Positions 7,173 through 28,827 of a stretch of DNA of 49,873 bases are shown here, piece after piece (position 1 is the stretch's first letter; each line of letters opens with the position of its first letter). Below the pieces are notes generated by a model. It was not told where the DNA came from and ran no database searches. It saw only the letters and a program-made list of their open reading frames with translations. The stretch lies in IMG/VR virus record IMGVR_UViG_3300046660_000372, positions 1 through 49,873 of that record. One strand, written 5' to 3'. This DNA comes from a virus. Both the position numbers and the translations under genes were made by a program.

Positions 7173-7679
7173 ATGAAAGTATTTATTTTATTCGCTGCCA
7201 TCGGCAGCATGTTCTTAGCCAGCTGCGCCGACCGCACACCTGACGACAGTACAGCGACGGCCTACGTGGATTCCACTGCGACTAAATGGGTCCCTTATAT
7301 GACAAACGATGGGACGATCGGCACCAAGCAGGTGTACGAAACCAAAGTAACGATCTCCCCGACGTGGGGACAGGCGTTTTATTACGCCTACAAATCAGGG
7401 TACACATTACAGCTTGTCGCTGGTATCGTTTTCATCCTTTTAGGTTTCGCCGCTTTGATCTTCATTCCCAACCTGGGGATTAAAATTGGATTTGGTGTGG
7501 TTTTAATAATGGCCGGTGCGGCTATAATCTATGTTAAGCCCGGGCGTATAAAGTCGGAGAATGACAAGGCTGTACTGCAAAGCACTTATGAAGACGCAAT
7601 TTTAAAAACGGGCAGCAGTATTGGTATTTGGGATAGCCTTTATAATTCAAACCGGCTGATTGCGGCCCCGTCCAAATGA
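7173..7679 (+). CDS. Lipoprotein with two membrane segments
   Basis: 168 residues. The signal peptide MKVFILFAAIGSMFLASC has lipobox LASC and Cys18. The middle is polar, followed by two adjacent hydrophobic segments (about residues 83-101 LVAGIVFILLGFAALIFIP and 104-124 GIKIGFGVVLIMAGAAIIYV), then a polar tail. It starts 5 bases after the spanin candidate and its stop overlaps the next gene by four bases. Having both a lipobox and integral segments is unusual. It could be a second spanin-like or holin-like lysis protein. The family is not recognised. Confidence 0.6.
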   Translation: MKVFILFAAIGSMFLASCADRTPDDSTATAYVDSTATKWVPYMTNDGTIGTKQVYETKVTISPTWGQAFYYAYKSGYTLQLVAGIVFILLGFAALIFIPNLGIKIGFGVVLIMAGAAIIYVKPGRIKSENDKAVLQSTYEDAILKTGSSIGIWDSLYNSNRLIAAPSK

Positions 7680-8076: not shown

Positions 8077-8640
8077 ATGACAGAAGTTATACAGCTGCGT
8101 TGGATTAAAACCAACCTGGGCCCAATCATTAACAGTTCACTGGCGGCCTGGAAGCAAAAAACGGCGATACAGGTACCATATACTGAAGACTGGCTGGCCG
8201 GGATCGCAATGCGGGAAGTCGGCCAGCTGGTGGGCAGGGCTATCGAAAAGAATTTGTCTTTCGGCACCGCCTGCGAAACAATGCGGGGGGATTATTCACA
8301 GCGCCCAGGCGATGCGATGAAAGTATACCACGGGTTTGGGTTTTGGCAGGTCGATGTAGGTAGCTACTCCGATTTTGTGCGTACCGGCCAATGGAAGGAT
8401 CCTTCACTTTCCTGCAGGCAAGCCATTACCATCCTTTACGGGAAGCAAACTTATCTAAGCCATCATTGCCCGGCGGTTACGGGGGAGGCCCTTCACAGGG
8501 CTCTAACAGCCGCCTATAATAACGGAGAGGGCAACCAGGTGAAGGTTATAATTGCCGGAAAGGATGTGGACGCTAAAACCACCGATCACAATTACAGCGC
8601 GGAAGTCTGGCGCTTTCGGGACATGTACAGAAATCTATAA
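8077..8640 (+). CDS. Endolysin, lysozyme/lytic-transglycosylase-like
   Basis: 187 residues from the ATG at 8077, chosen because it follows the upstream stop by two bases; an in-frame upstream start would overlap most of that gene's end. The sequence has the lysozyme-superfamily landmarks: a likely catalytic Glu in IAMREVGQL (near residue 49), the HGFGFWQVDVGSY motif (near residue 87) resembling the GFGLMQVD block of goose-type lysozymes, and AAYNNGEGN (near residue 150) resembling AYNAG. It should cut peptidoglycan glycan strands. There is no signal peptide, so it needs one of the upstream membrane proteins for release. It is the last gene before a strong terminator. Confidence 0.75.
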   Translation: MTEVIQLRWIKTNLGPIINSSLAAWKQKTAIQVPYTEDWLAGIAMREVGQLVGRAIEKNLSFGTACETMRGDYSQRPGDAMKVYHGFGFWQVDVGSYSDFVRTGQWKDPSLSCRQAITILYGKQTYLSHHCPAVTGEALHRALTAAYNNGEGNQVKVIIAGKDVDAKTTDHNYSAEVWRFRDMYRNL

Positions 8641-18534: not shown

Positions 18535-18738
18535 ATGAAATACCAATTTCGCCAGCTTTTGGATCTGGCAACACAAATGCGGAAGCTGCAGCACCGACTT
18601 GAAAAAGCGGATAAGGACCGCGACTTTATCAGCGCTGCAAATATCAAAGCCGAAATGCGGCCCGTAGGCGCAAAAATAGACACCCTACTGCCCCAGTGCG
18701 AAGCAGTAATAAAGGCCGAACAAACCAAAATGTTTTAA
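18535..18738 (+). CDS. Small helical protein
   Basis: 67 residues, almost entirely alpha-helical and charged (LDLATQMRKLQHRLEKADKD), likely a coiled coil. It lies four bases after the membrane protein and two bases before the sulfotransferase-like gene. Function unknown. Confidence 0.55.
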   Translation: MKYQFRQLLDLATQMRKLQHRLEKADKDRDFISAANIKAEMRPVGAKIDTLLPQCEAVIKAEQTKMF

Positions 18739-18740
18739 CG

Positions 18741-19418
18741 ATGGAATTTGTTATCAACTTTTCTGGCGGCAAAGACAGCTGCGCAATGCTGGCTTATTTG
18801 TGCGAGGAATACCCCGACGTAAAAAAGCATGTTGTATTTGCAGATACGGGCTGGGAACACTCCGATGCGGAAGTTTGGAGCCAAAAAATAGCTGCAGGGT
18901 TCGGGCTGGACTTGAACACCGTCCGAAGTTCAACAAAGACATTTCTAAGTATGTCCGAAGCGCGGGGCAAGTTTCCTGGCATGCAGACAAAACAATGCAC
19001 CAGCGATTTGAAACGTGGCCCAATTGCGACATGGATTCGTAGGAATATCCAGGAAACAATGATAGTTAATTGCATGGGCATGCGTGCAGAGGAAAGTGCG
19101 GGTAGGGCTAAAATGAAGGAATGGGCTTTAAACACCAGAGAAAGCAATGGCCAAAGAACTGTATATAACTGGTTGCCCATACACGACTGGAACGAAGCAA
19201 AAGTGATCGGATACCTGGCCGAAAGGCACATCCCATTGCATCCAGTTTATAAATACCTCCGCCGGTTTTCCTGTCGGGTTTGCATATTTATGACACTCCA
19301 TGATCTGCGCCAGGTTAAAATAAACGACCCGGAAGCCATCGAAATTATTTCCCGCATAGAAGACAAGACAAAATTTACAATGTTCCCAGCTGGGCCTATC
19401 AAAAGCCTAATTAACTAA
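18741..19418 (+). CDS. PAPS-reductase-family protein (adenine-nucleotide alpha hydrolase fold)
   Basis: 225 residues from the ATG at 18741. The PP-loop SGGKDS is at residues 8-13, followed by VFADTGWEH (near 34), the substrate-side segment CTSDLKRGP and a MRAEES block. A Cys pair SCRVC lies near residue 175. This is the family of phosphoadenosine phosphosulfate reductases and of DndC-like sulfur-transfer enzymes. Phage members are common, but their substrates are mostly unknown. The neighbour is a DNA methylase, so a role in nucleic-acid modification is possible. Sulfate assimilation proper is less likely in a phage. Confidence 0.7.
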   Translation: MEFVINFSGGKDSCAMLAYLCEEYPDVKKHVVFADTGWEHSDAEVWSQKIAAGFGLDLNTVRSSTKTFLSMSEARGKFPGMQTKQCTSDLKRGPIATWIRRNIQETMIVNCMGMRAEESAGRAKMKEWALNTRESNGQRTVYNWLPIHDWNEAKVIGYLAERHIPLHPVYKYLRRFSCRVCIFMTLHDLRQVKINDPEAIEIISRIEDKTKFTMFPAGPIKSLIN

Positions 19419-19423
19419 CTGAT

Positions 19424-19900
19424 ATGGACATATCATACCAAGGCAACACAAACACGGGAAAGGATGAATGGCTTACACCGCCCGAAATCATTAAGGCATG
19501 CGGGAAGTTCGATCTTGATCCTTGCGCCCCAATAGTCCGCCCTTGGGATACTGCAAAAAAACACTATACCATAGAAGACAATGGGCTGATACAAACCTGG
19601 AAAGGTCGGGTTTGGTGTAACCCGCCATATAATAACTGCCAACAGTGGTTTAACCTATGCGCGGATCATGGCAACGCTACAGGTATATGTTTCGTCCGCA
19701 CCGAAACCCAATGGTTTTTCGATACCATCTGGCGCCGCGCTTACGCCATCAAATTCCTGGAAGGGCGGGTCAATCATTACCACGTCGATGGTACCCGCGG
19801 GGGATCGCCCGGGTTGGGGTCTGTGCTGATAGCCTGGGACCTTAAAAATGCGCAGAAACTTCGGCTTTCAAAGCTTCCTGGAAAATACATTGTTCTATAA
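19424..19900 (+). CDS. Phage DNA N6-adenine methyltransferase (Dam type)
   Basis: 158 residues, normal for the phage Dam family (PF05869 type). Motifs are GKDEWLTPPEI (residues 12-22), FDLDPCAP (about 30), the catalytic NPPYNN near residue 66, and a C-terminal GTRGGSPGLGSVLIAW segment. It should methylate adenines in phage DNA and so protect it from host restriction or mark it. It starts five bases after the PAPS-reductase-like gene. Confidence 0.85.
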   Translation: MDISYQGNTNTGKDEWLTPPEIIKACGKFDLDPCAPIVRPWDTAKKHYTIEDNGLIQTWKGRVWCNPPYNNCQQWFNLCADHGNATGICFVRTETQWFFDTIWRRAYAIKFLEGRVNHYHVDGTRGGSPGLGSVLIAWDLKNAQKLRLSKLPGKYIVL

Positions 19901-22803: not shown

Positions 22804-23238
22804 ATGACAAAACGAAAGATTTATGTAGCAAGCAGCTGGCGCAATGAGCACCAGCCGGAAGTAGTAGGAATGCTTCGGGAGCTGGGGCACGAAGTGTACG
22901 ACTTTAAGAATCCACCGAACGGTACCGGCTTTGCGTGGTCAAGTATTAACCCAAATTGGATGAACTGGACAAGCCGGGAATATTTAGAAGCTTTGAAACA
23001 TCCGTTAGCAGTAGCCGGTTTTAAATCCGATTTCGATGGCATGCAATGGGCAGATACTTGTGTTATGGTCCTGCCGTGCGGCCGGTCGGCCAATACGGAA
23101 GCGGGCTGGATGAAGGGCGCCGGCAAAGAGGTTATTGTATTTATACCAATCCCGCAGGAACCTGAATTGATGTACAAAATATACGACAGGATCTATTATC
23201 GTTTCGGTGACCTGGGAGCGGCCTTTGTAATTATTTAA
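22804..23238 (+). CDS. Nucleoside 2-deoxyribosyltransferase-like protein
   Basis: 144 residues from ATG 22804 (MTKRKIYVASSWRNEHQPEV); an ATG at 22732 would add 24 residues unlike the family. The N-terminal beta strand and loop (IYVASSWRN), LRELGHEVYDF, and the late SANTEAGWMKGAGKEVIVF segment fit the nucleoside deoxyribosyltransferase fold, with Glu in NTEAGW as the likely nucleophile. In phages this family may make or recycle unusual deoxynucleosides. The substrate cannot be read from the sequence. Confidence 0.65.
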   Translation: MTKRKIYVASSWRNEHQPEVVGMLRELGHEVYDFKNPPNGTGFAWSSINPNWMNWTSREYLEALKHPLAVAGFKSDFDGMQWADTCVMVLPCGRSANTEAGWMKGAGKEVIVFIPIPQEPELMYKIYDRIYYRFGDLGAAFVII

Positions 23239-23261
23239 ACACCACGTCCAATATTTTACCA

Positions 23262-25763
23262 TTGTCTGAATCATTAGCAAAAGTTTGGCAGGAAGTCGAA
23301 GAATACCTACAGCAAGGGATAAGCGTTATACCGGTTCGTGACAAAGAAGAAAACGTCAACGGCAGGGTAAAGCCGCCGAAATCGCCGTACCATTTCTGGA
23401 AGCGTTTCCAGTCGGAGATAGTTACCAAGGATGAACTATGGCACATGATGGACGAACGCGGTACCACTGCCATCGCCATCCTGTGCGGCAAAATATCGGG
23501 CGTCATGGAAGCTATCGACGTGGATGTAAAGAACTGGCCAGGTATTGACGCCCGTCTGGCCGCCGCCATCCGGGATATATACCCCGAAGTATACAGCAGG
23601 CTGCGCACTCACAAAACCCCGTCAGGCGGTTGGCACCTTATATATCGGTACATCCTGCCCGAAGGCGCCCCTATCGATGGTAATAAGAAGCTGGCAACGT
23701 CATTGGATGGCGATAAAGCCGGCATCGAAACAAGGGGCGAAGGTGGCTATATCGTTGCGCCGCCATCCTTGGGCTATACCCTGATGCACCCCCGCCCTAT
23801 CCCGACAATCACCTATGAGGAACGCAACGGCCTGATAGCCCTATGCAAATCGTTTAACGAAAAAATAAAGGTCGAAAAACCATACAACATAAGTAAGTAT
23901 GAAAGCAACTACTACGATGAGAACCCTTTTAGTCATTATAATAATAGCCCTGCTGGCGAATCTGTACTTATTGATAACGGCTGGATCGTGGAAGGGCGCA
24001 ATAACACCCACATATATTACACACGGCCGGGTAAGGATTCCGGGATTTCCGCCAGCTTCGATCTGCGTACCAGAATCTTCTACCTGTTCACCACGTCCAC
24101 GACGTTTGAAGCGGATAAGGGGTACCATCCGTCAACGGCCCTGGCTATATTACAATTTGGGGGGGATAAGAAAAAGGCATACGCATACCTGGTACAAAAC
24201 GGATATGGTAAGGTAAAGCAACACATAGAACAACGGGCGGTACGCTCAGCTGCTGCCAAGGGGAAGCCATTGCCGGCGAATTTCAGCCAGGAAGCCGGCG
24301 CCGCTTATATTGATACGCGTGGCCAGCTGCAGGAAAAATACCCGTACGGAATATATTGGGTAGAAGACGCTGAAGATAGCACCGTTAAAATAAGCCGGGA
24401 AAAGCTTTATTTAGTAAGCGAAGGCCTGGGCTTCCGGTTGTCTTCCGCTGGGGCTGTTCAAATTGTTGGCTACACCCTTAATAAAATAAACAGCAGGTTT
24501 TACTTTGATACTATAAAAGCGTATATCAAAGAGGAAGACGGGGACTTATATGAAGCAATATTCAATGCCTGGGAAGCTTTTGTACAACGGTCTGGCGAGT
24601 TTACAATAAGCCGGCTGCCAATAATAGAGCCCGCCAGTATAGTTTCCTCTACTAAAACATCTTCGTATAAATTTTTTGACAACTGCTTTGTAAAGATAGA
24701 GGCTGACCGTATTACCGAACACTCGTACGATTCCCTTGGAGAAAAAAAGGTATGGGCCGATCAGATACAGCCCCGCCCGTGGGCGCCACTGGTCGATGAA
24801 GACACCCAGCACAGCCTATACTACCAATTTCTTGATCTCGCCGTCGGGATGGATAAGCAGGGAGACGTATTACTAAAAGCCATCGGCTACCTGGCGCATG
24901 ATTTCAAAGATGAAACGATGGGCTATATCATTACCCTTACTGAGCAATGCCCGGACCCGAAGCAAGGCGGCGGTAGTGGTAAAAATATATTTACGTCCCT
25001 ACTGGGACACACGACGACCCTAAAAAATATCCCGGGCAGCCAAGTACAGTATAACGAAAAGTTTCTGCAGGCATGGAATTTTGAACGCATCCTATCAATT
25101 AGCGATGTGCCTAAAAAGTTTGATTTCATGTTCTTAAAGGAACTGTCCACGGGTTCAGGCATCCTTAAGAAGCTTTTCAGGGACGAAATAACCGTGCTGC
25201 CCGGGCAGATGCCAAAGCTGGCAGTATCTACCAACTATTCCTATGACGTGGCCGACGGTGGCCTACGCAGACGAATAATACCCATAGAGTTTACCAATTT
25301 CTTTACCCGTGCTGGTGGGGTTGATGTGCACTTTGGAAGGATGTTTCCCGGGGACTGGAACGAAAACGAATGGCTTTGTTTCGACAACATTGTAGCGCGT
25401 GGCGTGCAAATGTGGCTGGCAGCTGGAAAGCTGTTGCCCCCTGAATTGACAGCCGGTGGATGGCAAAAGCAGTTTGACCAAAACCACGGCGGCAGCCTGA
25501 CGCGAATGTTTATTGAAGAAAGCTTGCCTACCTGGTGTCATGCTGCAAATGTTAAAAACGAAGATATACGAGCCCAGTACATGAAGTACTTAAATGAAAA
25601 TGGCGCCAATATCAAATACTCTCTTAGTAGCCCCGGGCTCAGCAAGGCTATTGAGGAATTCTGTCACCGCGGCGGTTACACGTACATAGCCGATCACCGC
25701 TTCCGTGAAATGGGTATGCAATTCCGCGGGAAACATTTTGAATTACCGGCGGCGCCCTTTTAG
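23262..25763 (+). CDS. Primase-polymerase fused to an SF3 helicase (replication protein)
   Basis: 833 residues from a TTG at 23262. The N-terminal 230 residues form an AEP-type primase/polymerase domain: AIDVDVKNWPG near 85 supplies acidic residues, HKTPSGGWHLIYRY near 120 the basic strand, and GIETRGEGGYIVAPPS near 150 is the family block. The C-terminal half is an SF3-type helicase with GGGSGKNIF (about residue 570) as Walker A, SISDVPKKFDF (about 613) as Walker B, and LAVSTNYSYDVADGGLRRR as motif C plus arginine finger. It should open the origin and prime replication. The iteron-like array starts 47 bases after its stop. Confidence 0.85.
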   Translation: MSESLAKVWQEVEEYLQQGISVIPVRDKEENVNGRVKPPKSPYHFWKRFQSEIVTKDELWHMMDERGTTAIAILCGKISGVMEAIDVDVKNWPGIDARLAAAIRDIYPEVYSRLRTHKTPSGGWHLIYRYILPEGAPIDGNKKLATSLDGDKAGIETRGEGGYIVAPPSLGYTLMHPRPIPTITYEERNGLIALCKSFNEKIKVEKPYNISKYESNYYDENPFSHYNNSPAGESVLIDNGWIVEGRNNTHIYYTRPGKDSGISASFDLRTRIFYLFTTSTTFEADKGYHPSTALAILQFGGDKKKAYAYLVQNGYGKVKQHIEQRAVRSAAAKGKPLPANFSQEAGAAYIDTRGQLQEKYPYGIYWVEDAEDSTVKISREKLYLVSEGLGFRLSSAGAVQIVGYTLNKINSRFYFDTIKAYIKEEDGDLYEAIFNAWEAFVQRSGEFTISRLPIIEPASIVSSTKTSSYKFFDNCFVKIEADRITEHSYDSLGEKKVWADQIQPRPWAPLVDEDTQHSLYYQFLDLAVGMDKQGDVLLKAIGYLAHDFKDETMGYIITLTEQCPDPKQGGGSGKNIFTSLLGHTTTLKNIPGSQVQYNEKFLQAWNFERILSISDVPKKFDFMFLKELSTGSGILKKLFRDEITVLPGQMPKLAVSTNYSYDVADGGLRRRIIPIEFTNFFTRAGGVDVHFGRMFPGDWNENEWLCFDNIVARGVQMWLAAGKLLPPELTAGGWQKQFDQNHGGSLTRMFIEESLPTWCHAANVKNEDIRAQYMKYLNENGANIKYSLSSPGLSKAIEEFCHRGGYTYIADHRFREMGMQFRGKHFELPAAPF

Positions 25764-25809
25764 GCCCGAAGGCGAAAAGTTCTTTGTTTATTGGTTTTTG
25801 ACGGCTATC

Positions 25810-26152
25810 TGTGACAAATTACTGTGTAATTGTCTCAATTTGTCACGGAAATTGTCACAGATAATATATTAAATACCAGTCAATTAGATTGGTCTGTGAC
25901 AATGTGACAACATTTTTCCCTTTTTAATGCTACGCGAGAAAAGAAAAGAAAATAATATAAAGAGGGAAATTAATAATAGTACTAACTATTGCATAGTACT
26001 AAAACAATGTTTTGATATTTTTTATTTCAGAAATAATATTCCTGATGGTTAGAAATAAATAGGGCTTTTTTCTGTCACAGCGTCACAAATGAATATAACT
26101 AACTATTATTCAATAAAGTATCCGTGACAATTTTTGTGACAAGCTGTGACAA
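25810..26152. other. Probable replication origin: iteron-like TGTGACAA array around an AT-rich core
   Basis: Ten sites contain GTGACA or its close variant in either orientation: 25810, 25840 (reverse), 25852 (reverse), 25895, 25903, 26072 (reverse), 26080 (reverse, variant), 26123, 26135 and 26145. The pair at 25895/25903 is directly adjacent. Five sites lie left and five right of a very AT-rich stretch (about 25915-26070), a possible unwinding element. The array occupies the only large gap in the replication operon (25764-26183), between the primase-helicase and the VRR-NUC gene. The gap has no coding sequence that I can support. Confidence 0.6.
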
Positions 26153-26183
26153 TTTTTTGCCTCACCTATAAAAAAATGACTTC

Positions 26184-26567
26184 ATGCAGAAAAAACAAAG
26201 CGAAATGCAGTTACAAGGTGCCTGTTTTAGATGGGCCTGGAATACCCACCCCGAAACAAGGCTTTTGTTATTCCATGTCCCGAATGGGGGATCAAGGAAT
26301 TCGCCAGTAGAAGGGGCTCAGTTAAAAGCGGTAGGGCTCATCCCGGGCATTCCTGACATGCTATTTGTCTGGAAGGGGAAATTATTCGCATTTGAATTTA
26401 AGGCTAAAGGCGGTAAGCTTAGCCCCTCACAATTGCTGATACAGTCTACCTGGCTGGATCAATACGTGGTAGTCTGGACAATAAGTAGTGAAGAAACCTT
26501 CAAAACAATTCTTTTAGACATACTATGCCCACAATCAATTTGTAAACCGGCGTTAGCCATAATTTAA
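26184..26567 (+). CDS. VRR-NUC family nuclease
   Basis: 127 residues, the usual length for phage VRR-NUC proteins. FHVPNGGSRN near residue 32 and PGIPDMLFVWKGKLFAFEFK near residues 53-72 give the PD-(D/E)XK site (Asp in IPD, then E-x-K). It probably cuts branched or flapped DNA during replication and recombination, possibly as a Holliday-junction or structure-specific nuclease. The ATG is 31 bases after the last iteron-like site. Confidence 0.8.
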   Translation: MQKKQSEMQLQGACFRWAWNTHPETRLLLFHVPNGGSRNSPVEGAQLKAVGLIPGIPDMLFVWKGKLFAFEFKAKGGKLSPSQLLIQSTWLDQYVVVWTISSEETFKTILLDILCPQSICKPALAII

Positions 26568-26574
26568 AAAAGAC

Positions 26575-26985
26575 ATGATCAAATTAACGGCCATTGGCCA
26601 TTTAGGAAAAGACTGCACCACTAATGAGGTGGGCGGCAAAAAGGTTATCAATTTCAACGTAGCCCATACTGAGAAGTGGACAGCAGCTGGCGGTGAAGTA
26701 AAGGAAAAGACTATCTGGATAGAATGCGCCTACTGGACCGAGAAAACCGGTATCGCAAATTACCTGAAGAAAGGCCAGCAGGTATACGTAGAAGGTCAAC
26801 CGGAAGTACGTACGTGGGAATCAAACGGCAAACAAGGCGTATCCCTGGCACTTCGGGTAGGAATGGTGCAATTACTGGGCAGCGCCAATGCAGGCCAACA
26901 AGCGGGCGCTAATGCGTCACAGGGGTCAAGTTCGCCGGCGCCTGCTGCTGCGGGCGTGATAGAGGAACAAGATTTACCATTTTAA
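26575..26985 (+). CDS. ssb: Single-stranded DNA-binding protein
   Basis: 136 residues. The OB fold spans residues 1-105: MIKLTAIGHLGKDC, then WIECAYWTEKTGIANYLKKG, QQVYVEGQPEVRTW. A Gly/Ala/Gln linker leads to the acidic tail EEQDLPF, the conserved SSB tip that recruits partner proteins. It coats ssDNA at phage forks and during RecT-type annealing. It is the last large gene of the replication operon. Confidence 0.93.
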   Translation: MIKLTAIGHLGKDCTTNEVGGKKVINFNVAHTEKWTAAGGEVKEKTIWIECAYWTEKTGIANYLKKGQQVYVEGQPEVRTWESNGKQGVSLALRVGMVQLLGSANAGQQAGANASQGSSSPAPAAAGVIEEQDLPF

Positions 26986-28146: not shown

Positions 28147-28191
28147 GGGTTGCAACCCGGGTTGCAAATTTTTTTTTCAGGGTTGCAACCC
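28147..28191. promoter_or_regulatory. GGGTTGCAA palindromes upstream of the terminase: terminator and/or packaging site
   Basis: GGGTTGCAACCC, a perfect 12-base palindrome, occurs at 28147-28158 and 28180-28191. A third GGGTTGCAA (28159-28167) abuts the first, making TTGCAACCCGGGTTGCAA (28150-28167), a perfect 18-base palindrome followed by a T run to 28177. It would work as a terminator. It also lies directly before the Nu1-like gene, where lambda-type phages keep cosB, the terminase-binding site. The remaining part of the 267-base gap 27940-28206 has a GC-rich stretch (28075-28120). An ORF there is not convincing. Confidence 0.5.
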
Positions 28192-28206: not shown

Positions 28207-28827
28207 ATGGCAGACGAACAAAAAATTTCAGTCAGGGCTTACAGCAGGATGATCGGCGTCAGTGATACTTCAATCCGAAAAGCCATAAAAGCAAAAAAAA
28301 TTGTTAAAGGCTTCGACCCGGTATCAGGGGAAATCATCCCCAGCATAGCAGATAAGGAGTACGGGAATGCTATAAAGGCAGCGACTGTCAAACCCGGGGA
28401 GACAGTGATCAAAAGTATAGAGAAGATAAAAGCGAAGAAATCTTCTATAAAAACAGAAAAACCAACCGTTTACGACGAATATGGAGAAGATATAGATCAG
28501 CCCGTATTTGATCCAAATGCCCCCCTAACAACAGAAACCCCCGTAGAAAATATTCTCGTACTGGATACATACTACAAGGCAAAGCTTAATAAAATGAAAA
28601 TGGAGCAGATGGAAGGCACCCTGGTGCTGCGGGCCGAAGTTGATAAAGAAGCTTTCGCCTTGGGTGTTGAAATAAAAAAGGCCCTTCAGAATATTCCCGC
28701 GCGAATAGCTGCCCTGGTACGCGCAACGGATAGCGATGCTGCTGCAGAAATGATGATCAGGGACGAGGTTAACGGGGCCTTGCTGGTGTTATCTCAAATC
28801 AAAACCATCACAATCGATGCAGATTGA
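28207..28827 (+). CDS. Terminase small subunit (Nu1-like)
   Basis: 206 residues. The N-terminal winged helix (SVRAYSRMIGVSDTSIRKAI) would recognise the packaging site. An acidic linker follows, then a helical part: VLDTYYKAKLNKMKMEQMEG and the ending AEVDKEAFALGVEIKKALQN ... ALVRA, the pattern of Nu1-type C-terminal domains that bind the large subunit. It overlaps the large subunit gene by 11 bases, as is usual for coupled terminase genes. Confidence 0.8.
   Translation: MADEQKISVRAYSRMIGVSDTSIRKAIKAKKIVKGFDPVSGEIIPSIADKEYGNAIKAATVKPGETVIKSIEKIKAKKSSIKTEKPTVYDEYGEDIDQPVFDPNAPLTTETPVENILVLDTYYKAKLNKMKMEQMEGTLVLRAEVDKEAFALGVEIKKALQNIPARIAALVRATDSDAAAEMMIRDEVNGALLVLSQIKTITIDAD

Follow-up and report, generated by a model that had tools for sequence, protein, structure and literature searches.

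A probable replication origin of a tailed phage: an iteron array in mirrored, helix-phased halves next to a PrimPol-SF3 initiator gene, with a site word that covaries with the initiator's C-terminal wing

In PICI/SaPI elements, the origin is located directly 3' of the gene for a (primase-)SF3/D5 initiator and comprises two iteron sets and an AT-rich region, which are recognized by the C-terminal domain of the initiator (PMC6092414; PMC7581432). SaPI Rep, apparently as two hexamers, uses its C-terminal domain to bind iterons downstream of the rep gene, and the C-terminal domain of Cch2 binds the putative origin of Cch2 (PMC7581432). P4 possesses octamers in both orientations, and its crr lies directly 3' of alpha, which has a TOPRIM primase (PMC4234260). 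In Sfi21, the annotated origin is non-coding and directly follows, on the 3' side, the gene of a putative primase that has an NTP-binding motif. For pRN1, a 100-nt stem-loop 3' of orf904 is described as required (PMC4234260). In the PLE satellites of Vibrio, the initiator RepA and the origin covary with repeated specificity swaps, and only cognate pairs replicate (PMC8263062).

The DNA analyzed here, referred to as the window, comprises 49,873 bases and corresponds to a virus record of IMG/VR that is classed as linear. Its positions 25810-26152 very probably represent a phage replication origin to which the winged helix at the C-terminus of the upstream 833-aa PrimPol-SF3 initiator would bind; the assignment as origin is made because the layout resembles tested or annotated origins. 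As in PICI/SaPI, the array is situated immediately 3' of the initiator gene (gene end at 25763), and iteron specificity appears to reside in the C-terminal domain of the initiator, as judged by covariation only. As in Sfi21 and P4 crr, it directly follows the gene of a replication protein, and it shares octamers in both orientations with P4. However, ori1 and crr of P4 are about 4.7 kb apart, whereas the window has one compact array with its two halves side by side, and its initiator carries a PrimPol domain instead of the TOPRIM primase of alpha. In Sfi21, PrimPol and NTPase are encoded by separate genes. The stem-loop of pRN1/BIP-1 is replaced by iterons in the window, and RepA of PLE, although a precedent for covarying initiator-origin modules, belongs to another protein family, namely RepA_N initiators without helicase that use semi-palindromic iterons of about 30 bp. 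Contrary to the PICI/SaPI satellites, the window is a full tailed phage with genes for integrase, terminase, portal, major head/protease, tail sheath and tape measure; since the full structural gene set is present, it does not match a helper-dependent island and is not a PICI.

Layout and mechanism belong to the known P4, PICI-SaPI and Sfi21 class, and the view taken in an earlier sequence-only reading, that the layout was not recognizable from a studied phage, is not supported. The new part is the phased geometry together with the wing-residue code. No paper on a helix-phased half-origin or on a wing code was found in our literature search, which covered a minority of subscription papers and is no proof of absence.

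Array and initiator of the window

The exact word TGTGACAA was found seven times in the window as compared to 1.25 expected by shuffling (100 shuffles, maximum 6), and six of the seven copies are inside 25810-26152. Allowing one mismatch, this 343-bp stretch holds ten non-overlapping sites and is the densest of the window. The window-wide total of 32 one-mismatch sites is at chance level, hence the signal of the array is its clustering. A weaker eleventh site with two mismatches (TGTGACGC, 26080-26087, minus strand) mirrors the site at 25895 exactly. The array consists of two mirror-image halves, in which five plus/minus site pairs coincide to the base about position 25991; among 2000 random placements at zero tolerance the maximum was three mirrored pairs. 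The core between the halves reaches 75.8% AT compared to 53.4% for the window, a value attained by 2 of 2486 windows of the same size. The ten sites in two orientations around an AT-rich segment that the sequence-only reading had described were therefore confirmed, as was their position right after the primase-SF3 helicase gene, with 47 bp between its stop and the first site (Table 1).

Table 1. Features of the array, the initiator gene and the genes downstream of it (positions refer to the window).
Feature	Position	Strand	Remark
Gene of the 833-aa initiator (PrimPol at the N-terminus, SF3/D5-like helicase, winged helix at the C-terminus)	23262..25763	+	Pfam, PHROGs, AF2/Foldseek
C-terminal winged-helix domain, residues 731-833	25452..25760	+	predicted model
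Wing beta-hairpin, residues 807-827, holding R815 and R822	25680..25742	+	model strands 807-816 and 819-827
Site TGTGACAA, outermost, without mirror partner	25810..25817	+	exact match
Site TGAGACAA	25830..25837	-	mirrors 26145-26152
Site CGTGACAA	25840..25847	-	mirrors 26135-26142
Site TGTGACAA	25852..25859	-	mirrors 26123-26130
Left AT-rich spacer	25860..25894	.	74% AT
Left inner tandem pair TGTGACAATGTGACAA	25895..25910	+	8 bp apart
AT-rich core, proposed melting region	25911..26071	.	dyad axis near 25991
Degenerate tandem pair of inner sites on the right, TGTGACGC and TGTGACAG	26072..26087	-	8 bp apart
Right AT-rich spacer	26088..26122	.	83% AT
Site CGTGACAA	26123..26130	+	mirrors 25852-25859
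Site TGTGACAA	26135..26142	+	mirrors 25840-25847
Site TGTGACAA	26145..26152	+	mirrors 25830-25837
Small endonuclease-like gene, 127 aa, after the array	26184..26567	+	phrog_824 7.9e-25; phrog_93 endonuclease 1.3e-8
SSB gene	26575..26985	+	Pfam SSB 1.8e-17

A second array of this kind was not detected in the window, the next best 7-mer cluster being a short tandem run of five GCAACCC copies in 45 bp (28147-28191), just ahead of the gene at 28207. For the array, Rfam gave no match and no terminator-like sites were seen, and the only DnaA-box-like site of the window, at 8292, is remote from it. IHF-like sites, scanned with a general consensus, were hinted at as a second conserved element by three relatives and were dropped because the window has one match only, located in the core. 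The tetranucleotide GATC is missing from 25764-26183 although it occurs 167 times in the window. A PAPS-reductase-like and a Dam-like methyltransferase gene are located at 18696-19900, upstream of the replication module.

The initiator matched Prim-Pol in Pfam (1.8e-16) and DNA polymerase/primase in PHROGs; Pfam returned no helicase match and a sequence search of the PDB no credible match. It contains GGGSGKN, which we take to be the Walker-A-like motif of an SF3/D5-like helicase. A Foldseek search with its AF2 model (pLDDT 85.6) recovered AsfvPrimPol, pox D5/E5, NrS-1 and the SaPI5 primase-helicase 7ola, and the E values of 2e-12 to 5e-9 for AsfvPrimPol, D5/E5 and 7ola point to a PrimPol joined to a D5-like helicase fold. 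The modeled fragment 724-833 (pLDDT 88.1, pTM 0.76) was aligned by VIA-align with the P4 origin-binding domain 1ka8 at Z 6.8, rmsd 2.6, 74 aligned residues and 18% identity, where a Z of that size may reflect only a common arrangement and 1ka8 is one among many winged helices matched, ORC/Cdc6 included. VIA-align alone lists 1ka8: it is absent from the best 50 Foldseek rows for the fragment, for which Foldseek gave no match at E 0.001 or better. On the level of predicted models, a likeness to P4 alpha in the winged-helix origin-binding domain is possible. Among the named phages closest by protein (33 records) none spanned 80% of the initiator, and blastn of 23200-26600 against phages found no match.

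Arrays and half-origin geometry among related initiators

Relatives were collected from IMG/VR and genome contigs in scans whose alignments were broadened step by step; the first scan of genome contigs yielded no relative and the second yielded L034 and L035. At 97% identity, 57 initiator clusters were obtained, not counting the distant proteins L002, L003 and L035. An array was located near the gene in 42 of the clusters and none was found in the DNA examined for the other 15, which bears out the expectation that such arrays stand beside homologous primases. De novo 7-mer counts in the accepted arrays ranged from 4 to 13 versus shuffle maxima of 3 to 6; L072, which is among the 42, is weak, as its four copies equal its own null maximum. 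The first relative, L001 (43% identity), has a two-sided array at the same place with the word TGTTACAA, and the array word of L005 is TGTAACGA. In L001, L005 and L035, a similar endonuclease-like gene seems to come after the array, as read by eye. Many arrays are located directly 3' of the gene, others 0.3-3 kb further on (e.g., L010, L016, L034, L053, L055 and L062), and those of L057 and L058 upstream of it. In L058, thirteen 9-bp tandem copies with a CGCTACAAC-like unit are found at about 7455-7575, downstream of the initiator and apart from the array; this tandem was discarded as array candidate in favor of the better one upstream of the gene, and a GTTTATA run in L056 was likewise discarded for a better array elsewhere in that locus.

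The Pseudopedobacter MAG contig L035 (1748-2075), encoding a distant SF3 protein of 28% identity, has 11 GTGACAA sites with the word and the full layout of the window; the opposite end of the stretch holds what is presumably a ychF-like gene, which suggests an integrated element. L082 and L083, related to the helicase of L035, showed no 7-mer cluster of at least 6. In the sister clade (27-29% identity, 61 new initiators), most members had no array within about 4 kb and a minority had other words, e.g., AATCGCGTAC, some of the automatic calls resembling unrelated repeats. Clusters with quite different words, such as AATCGCGTAC and TGTACTCG, and with gaps of roughly 83-103 bp were noted in this clade at L112, L118, L119, L135, L217 and L219, at L121, L136 and L161, at L215, at L222, and at L151 and L158.

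The arrays have in common that tandem pairs of inner sites, spaced by 8-9 bp, flank the core on either side and that the outer sites are phased at 10.4-10.5 bp. Phasing was analyzed in 33 loci, 9 of the 42 being dropped as near-duplicates or for an ambiguous inner site. Of the 37 offsets of at most 20 bp in these loci, 35 measured 8 or 9 bp. The 117 same-orientation outer offsets gave R=0.60 at 10.5 bp with a best period of 10.4 (null maximum 0.26) and phase zero relative to the inner site, while the signal of the 78 opposite-orientation offsets was weaker (R=0.37 at 10.5, null maximum 0.30). According to this helical phasing, the sites are located on the same face of the helix. Mirror symmetry within 1 bp exceeded chance (P<=0.013) in 9 of the 42 loci only. 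The gap between the inner sites is 168 bp in the window versus about 120-150 bp in most relatives, and in L054, L057 and L058 the sites of each half have a single orientation at similar spacing.

The annotated origins of P4 and Sfi21 have comparable half-origins. The P4 ori1 offsets 0, 10, 21, 43, 86 and 96 (one inverted site) resemble the left half of L018 with 0, 9, 20, 42, 85 and 94, and the left half of the window agrees with P4 in one of four outer sites if orientation is considered and in two of four if it is not. Sfi21, with the word AGTTACT, has inner pairs 8 bp apart that flank an AT-rich core and outer sites at 52, 75 and 83, but its inner gap is 76 bp instead of the 168 bp of the window. 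The sites of the EcCICFT073 pri-rep-ori region (L085, 24013-24234) are likewise arranged in mirrored halves; they include a pair spaced by 9 bp, and the outer sites are at 55, 77, 88 and 97, whereas the tandem pairs are on the outside of the array. The recurrence of outer offsets in the family as compared to a uniform null (2 bp) was 61 vs 23.5 for P4 ori1, 39 vs 14.7 for P4 crr and 44 vs 14.7 for Sfi21, values calculated with 9 of 42 loci dropped and which for P4 and Sfi21 could be lifted by shared phasing alone; for EcCICFT073 it was at chance (24 vs 23.2).

Site word and wing residues 815 and 822

The 42 array words align as nGTNACNAA with 33 variants, GT and AC both being kept in 30 of them. 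The word table was set by hand from the site consensus, with orientation taken from the inner pairs; as some wing sequences had been viewed before, columns 815 and 822 are post-selected in the training data. For 35 of the 38 training loci in which it called a word, an automatic caller reproduced the hand assignment at positions 0, 3 and 6. It mis-oriented L207 (stray site inside the gene), which was re-oriented post hoc by its inner pairs and is therefore not a clean test.

In partial Mantel tests on 44 rows, with the partial or split genes of L024, L028, L076, L077, L080 and L315 left out, the word was correlated with the wing given the rest of the protein (r=0.485, 0 of 500 permutations), as opposed to r=-0.106 for the word and the rest given the wing. 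The wing of L035 could not be aligned, and this locus is excluded from the partial Mantel tests as well as from the column ranking, residue counts and contrasts. For position 0, the base before GTNAC, residue 815 was the best of 812 columns (p=1.3e-7, next 1.6e-3; 41 training rows), and for position 6 residue 822 was the best of 815 columns (1.9e-9, next 1.6e-6; 41 training rows), the latter ranking being subject to shared ancestry. Counted over 50 rows from training and test together, R815 was accompanied by T in 22 of 22 rows and K815 by G in 13 and A in 3 (16/16), with 12 rows not scorable; R822 was accompanied by A in 20 of 20, and K822 by a base other than A in 26 of 28 and by A in 2, with 2 rows not scorable. 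When a tree of residues 1-725 was used, each of the 11 independent contrasts for residue 815 agreed (p=0.001), while those for residue 822 were weak, comprising four pairs only, of which three agreed and one showed no difference. No clear single residue emerged for position 3 (818, 813), its top mutual-information column being E703, before and outside the wing. As judged from this covariation, the word follows the C-terminal wing and not the rest of the protein; in related phages the layout is kept while the recognized letters change, with two residues near the C-terminus changing along.

Natural swaps are in line with this. Between L015 and L018, 820 positions can be aligned and 42 of them differ; the last 38 residues account for 13 of the differences and 731-795 for one, and the word changes from GTAACGAA to ATTACTAA; per 100 columns, their DNA identity is mostly 87-93% in the gene and falls to 45-62% in the array. 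L062 (R815) has the word TGTTACAG, as opposed to GGTTACAG in L316, L313/L320 and L314/L321 (K815).

The 815/822 rule was fixed in writing before eight Sphingobacteriales genomes were examined. An array was present in all eight, position 0 was correct in 7 of 7 with a rule, and position 6 in 8 of 8; five of the words were new, those of L309 and L315 repeating the word of L010 and that of L312 repeating the word of L055/L079. In two of the eight, about 5 kb separate the gene from the downstream array, whose flanking bases were those predicted. The L310 array was located by searching for the predicted word; among all 16 flank combinations the predicted one had most sites in L310, where its reading as reverse complement ties by construction. 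The initiator gene of L315 (G393:C1:4913310-4915779) is interrupted, so that it reads as two open frames, next to an intact array, due to either a decaying prophage or an assembly frameshift.

Reading of the array and its consequences

The identity of the array as the binding site of its own initiator is strongly supported by the finding that arrays accompany homologous initiators and that the word covaries with the wing, also in unseen genomes, and the proposal of the sequence-only reading that an origin is recognized here by its own replication protein gains weight from the same pattern. By analogy, the array would work like the origins of P4, PICI and Sfi21, without being part of a PICI, and replication would fire from it. 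We propose that in each half-origin an AT-rich spacer separates the outer sites, which lie on the same face of the helix, from a tandem pair turned towards the AT-rich core, and that initiator protomers bind and assemble on each half. Two SF3 rings would then form face to face, melt the core and move apart, leading to bidirectional firing, with the PrimPol domain priming after core melting. The GC skew, suggested earlier as a check, lent no support: it does not turn at the array, and its cumulative minimum is near 17-20 kb and not at 26 kb.

That the array is instead an operator for a transcription regulator, or that the initiator is an autorepressor only with the origin elsewhere, is improbable. 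Seven sigma-70-like matches in 25700-26250, some overlapping array sites, compared to 2.0 expected would fit an operator; however, AT-rich DNA favors such matches, and the promoters of Bacteroidota differ from this consensus. Moreover, the word covaries with the initiator's own wing, the distance of the array from the initiator varies, from directly after it to about 5 kb downstream or, in L057/L058, upstream, and the arrangement as two halves of phased sites with an AT-rich core between them matches the origin annotated for Sfi21 and is similar to that of P4. Even less probable is a role in partition, packaging or incompatibility, with the array titrating the initiator: although P4 crr is a second array annotated as cis-required for replication besides ori, the window has a single such array, and in relatives the array goes together with the initiator. 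A large stem-loop downstream of the PrimPol-SF3 gene as in pRN1/BIP-1, with the repeats as its arms only, is the least credible, since the folding of single-stranded 25764-26183, better than that of shuffles (z=-4.6) and with the pRN1 stem-loop 3' of orf904 as precedent, is given by inverted sites alone, the single-orientation halves of L054, L057 and L058 keep a similar spacing, and spacing tracks the helix repeat and the word tracks the wing, as predicted by duplex binding.

Proceeding from the origin reading, we tentatively suggest, as a possibility that falls a little short of an even chance, that a family-wide wing code creates incompatible replicons, with R815 reading T, K815 reading G/A, R822 reading A and K822 reading C/G/T. 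A few wing changes together with matching site changes would give a new, mutually incompatible replicon, the helix-phased half-origin remaining fixed. As the origin mostly adjoins the gene end that codes for the wing, one recombination event could swap both, and the separated ori1 and crr of P4 would have arisen by dispersal of the two halves of this ancestral bipartite origin.

On the origin reading, an unlabeled array becomes a testable initiator-origin pair with predictions down to single residues and single bases, the origins of the family may be predictable from protein sequence, and phage replicons could switch specificity with their architecture unchanged. Orthogonal initiator-origin pairs would be relevant for the construction of orthogonal replicons and bear on phage-satellite competition, in which origins can be targets (compare PLE/Odn; PMC8263062). 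The code is incomplete, as L039 and L041 both have K815 and R822 and yet differ in their words at positions 0 (A/G) and 3 (T/A). Their helicases are 99% alike, with V813L, M814I and L820V in the wing and a different C-terminal tail, and these nearly identical initiators with different words represent a good specificity pair.
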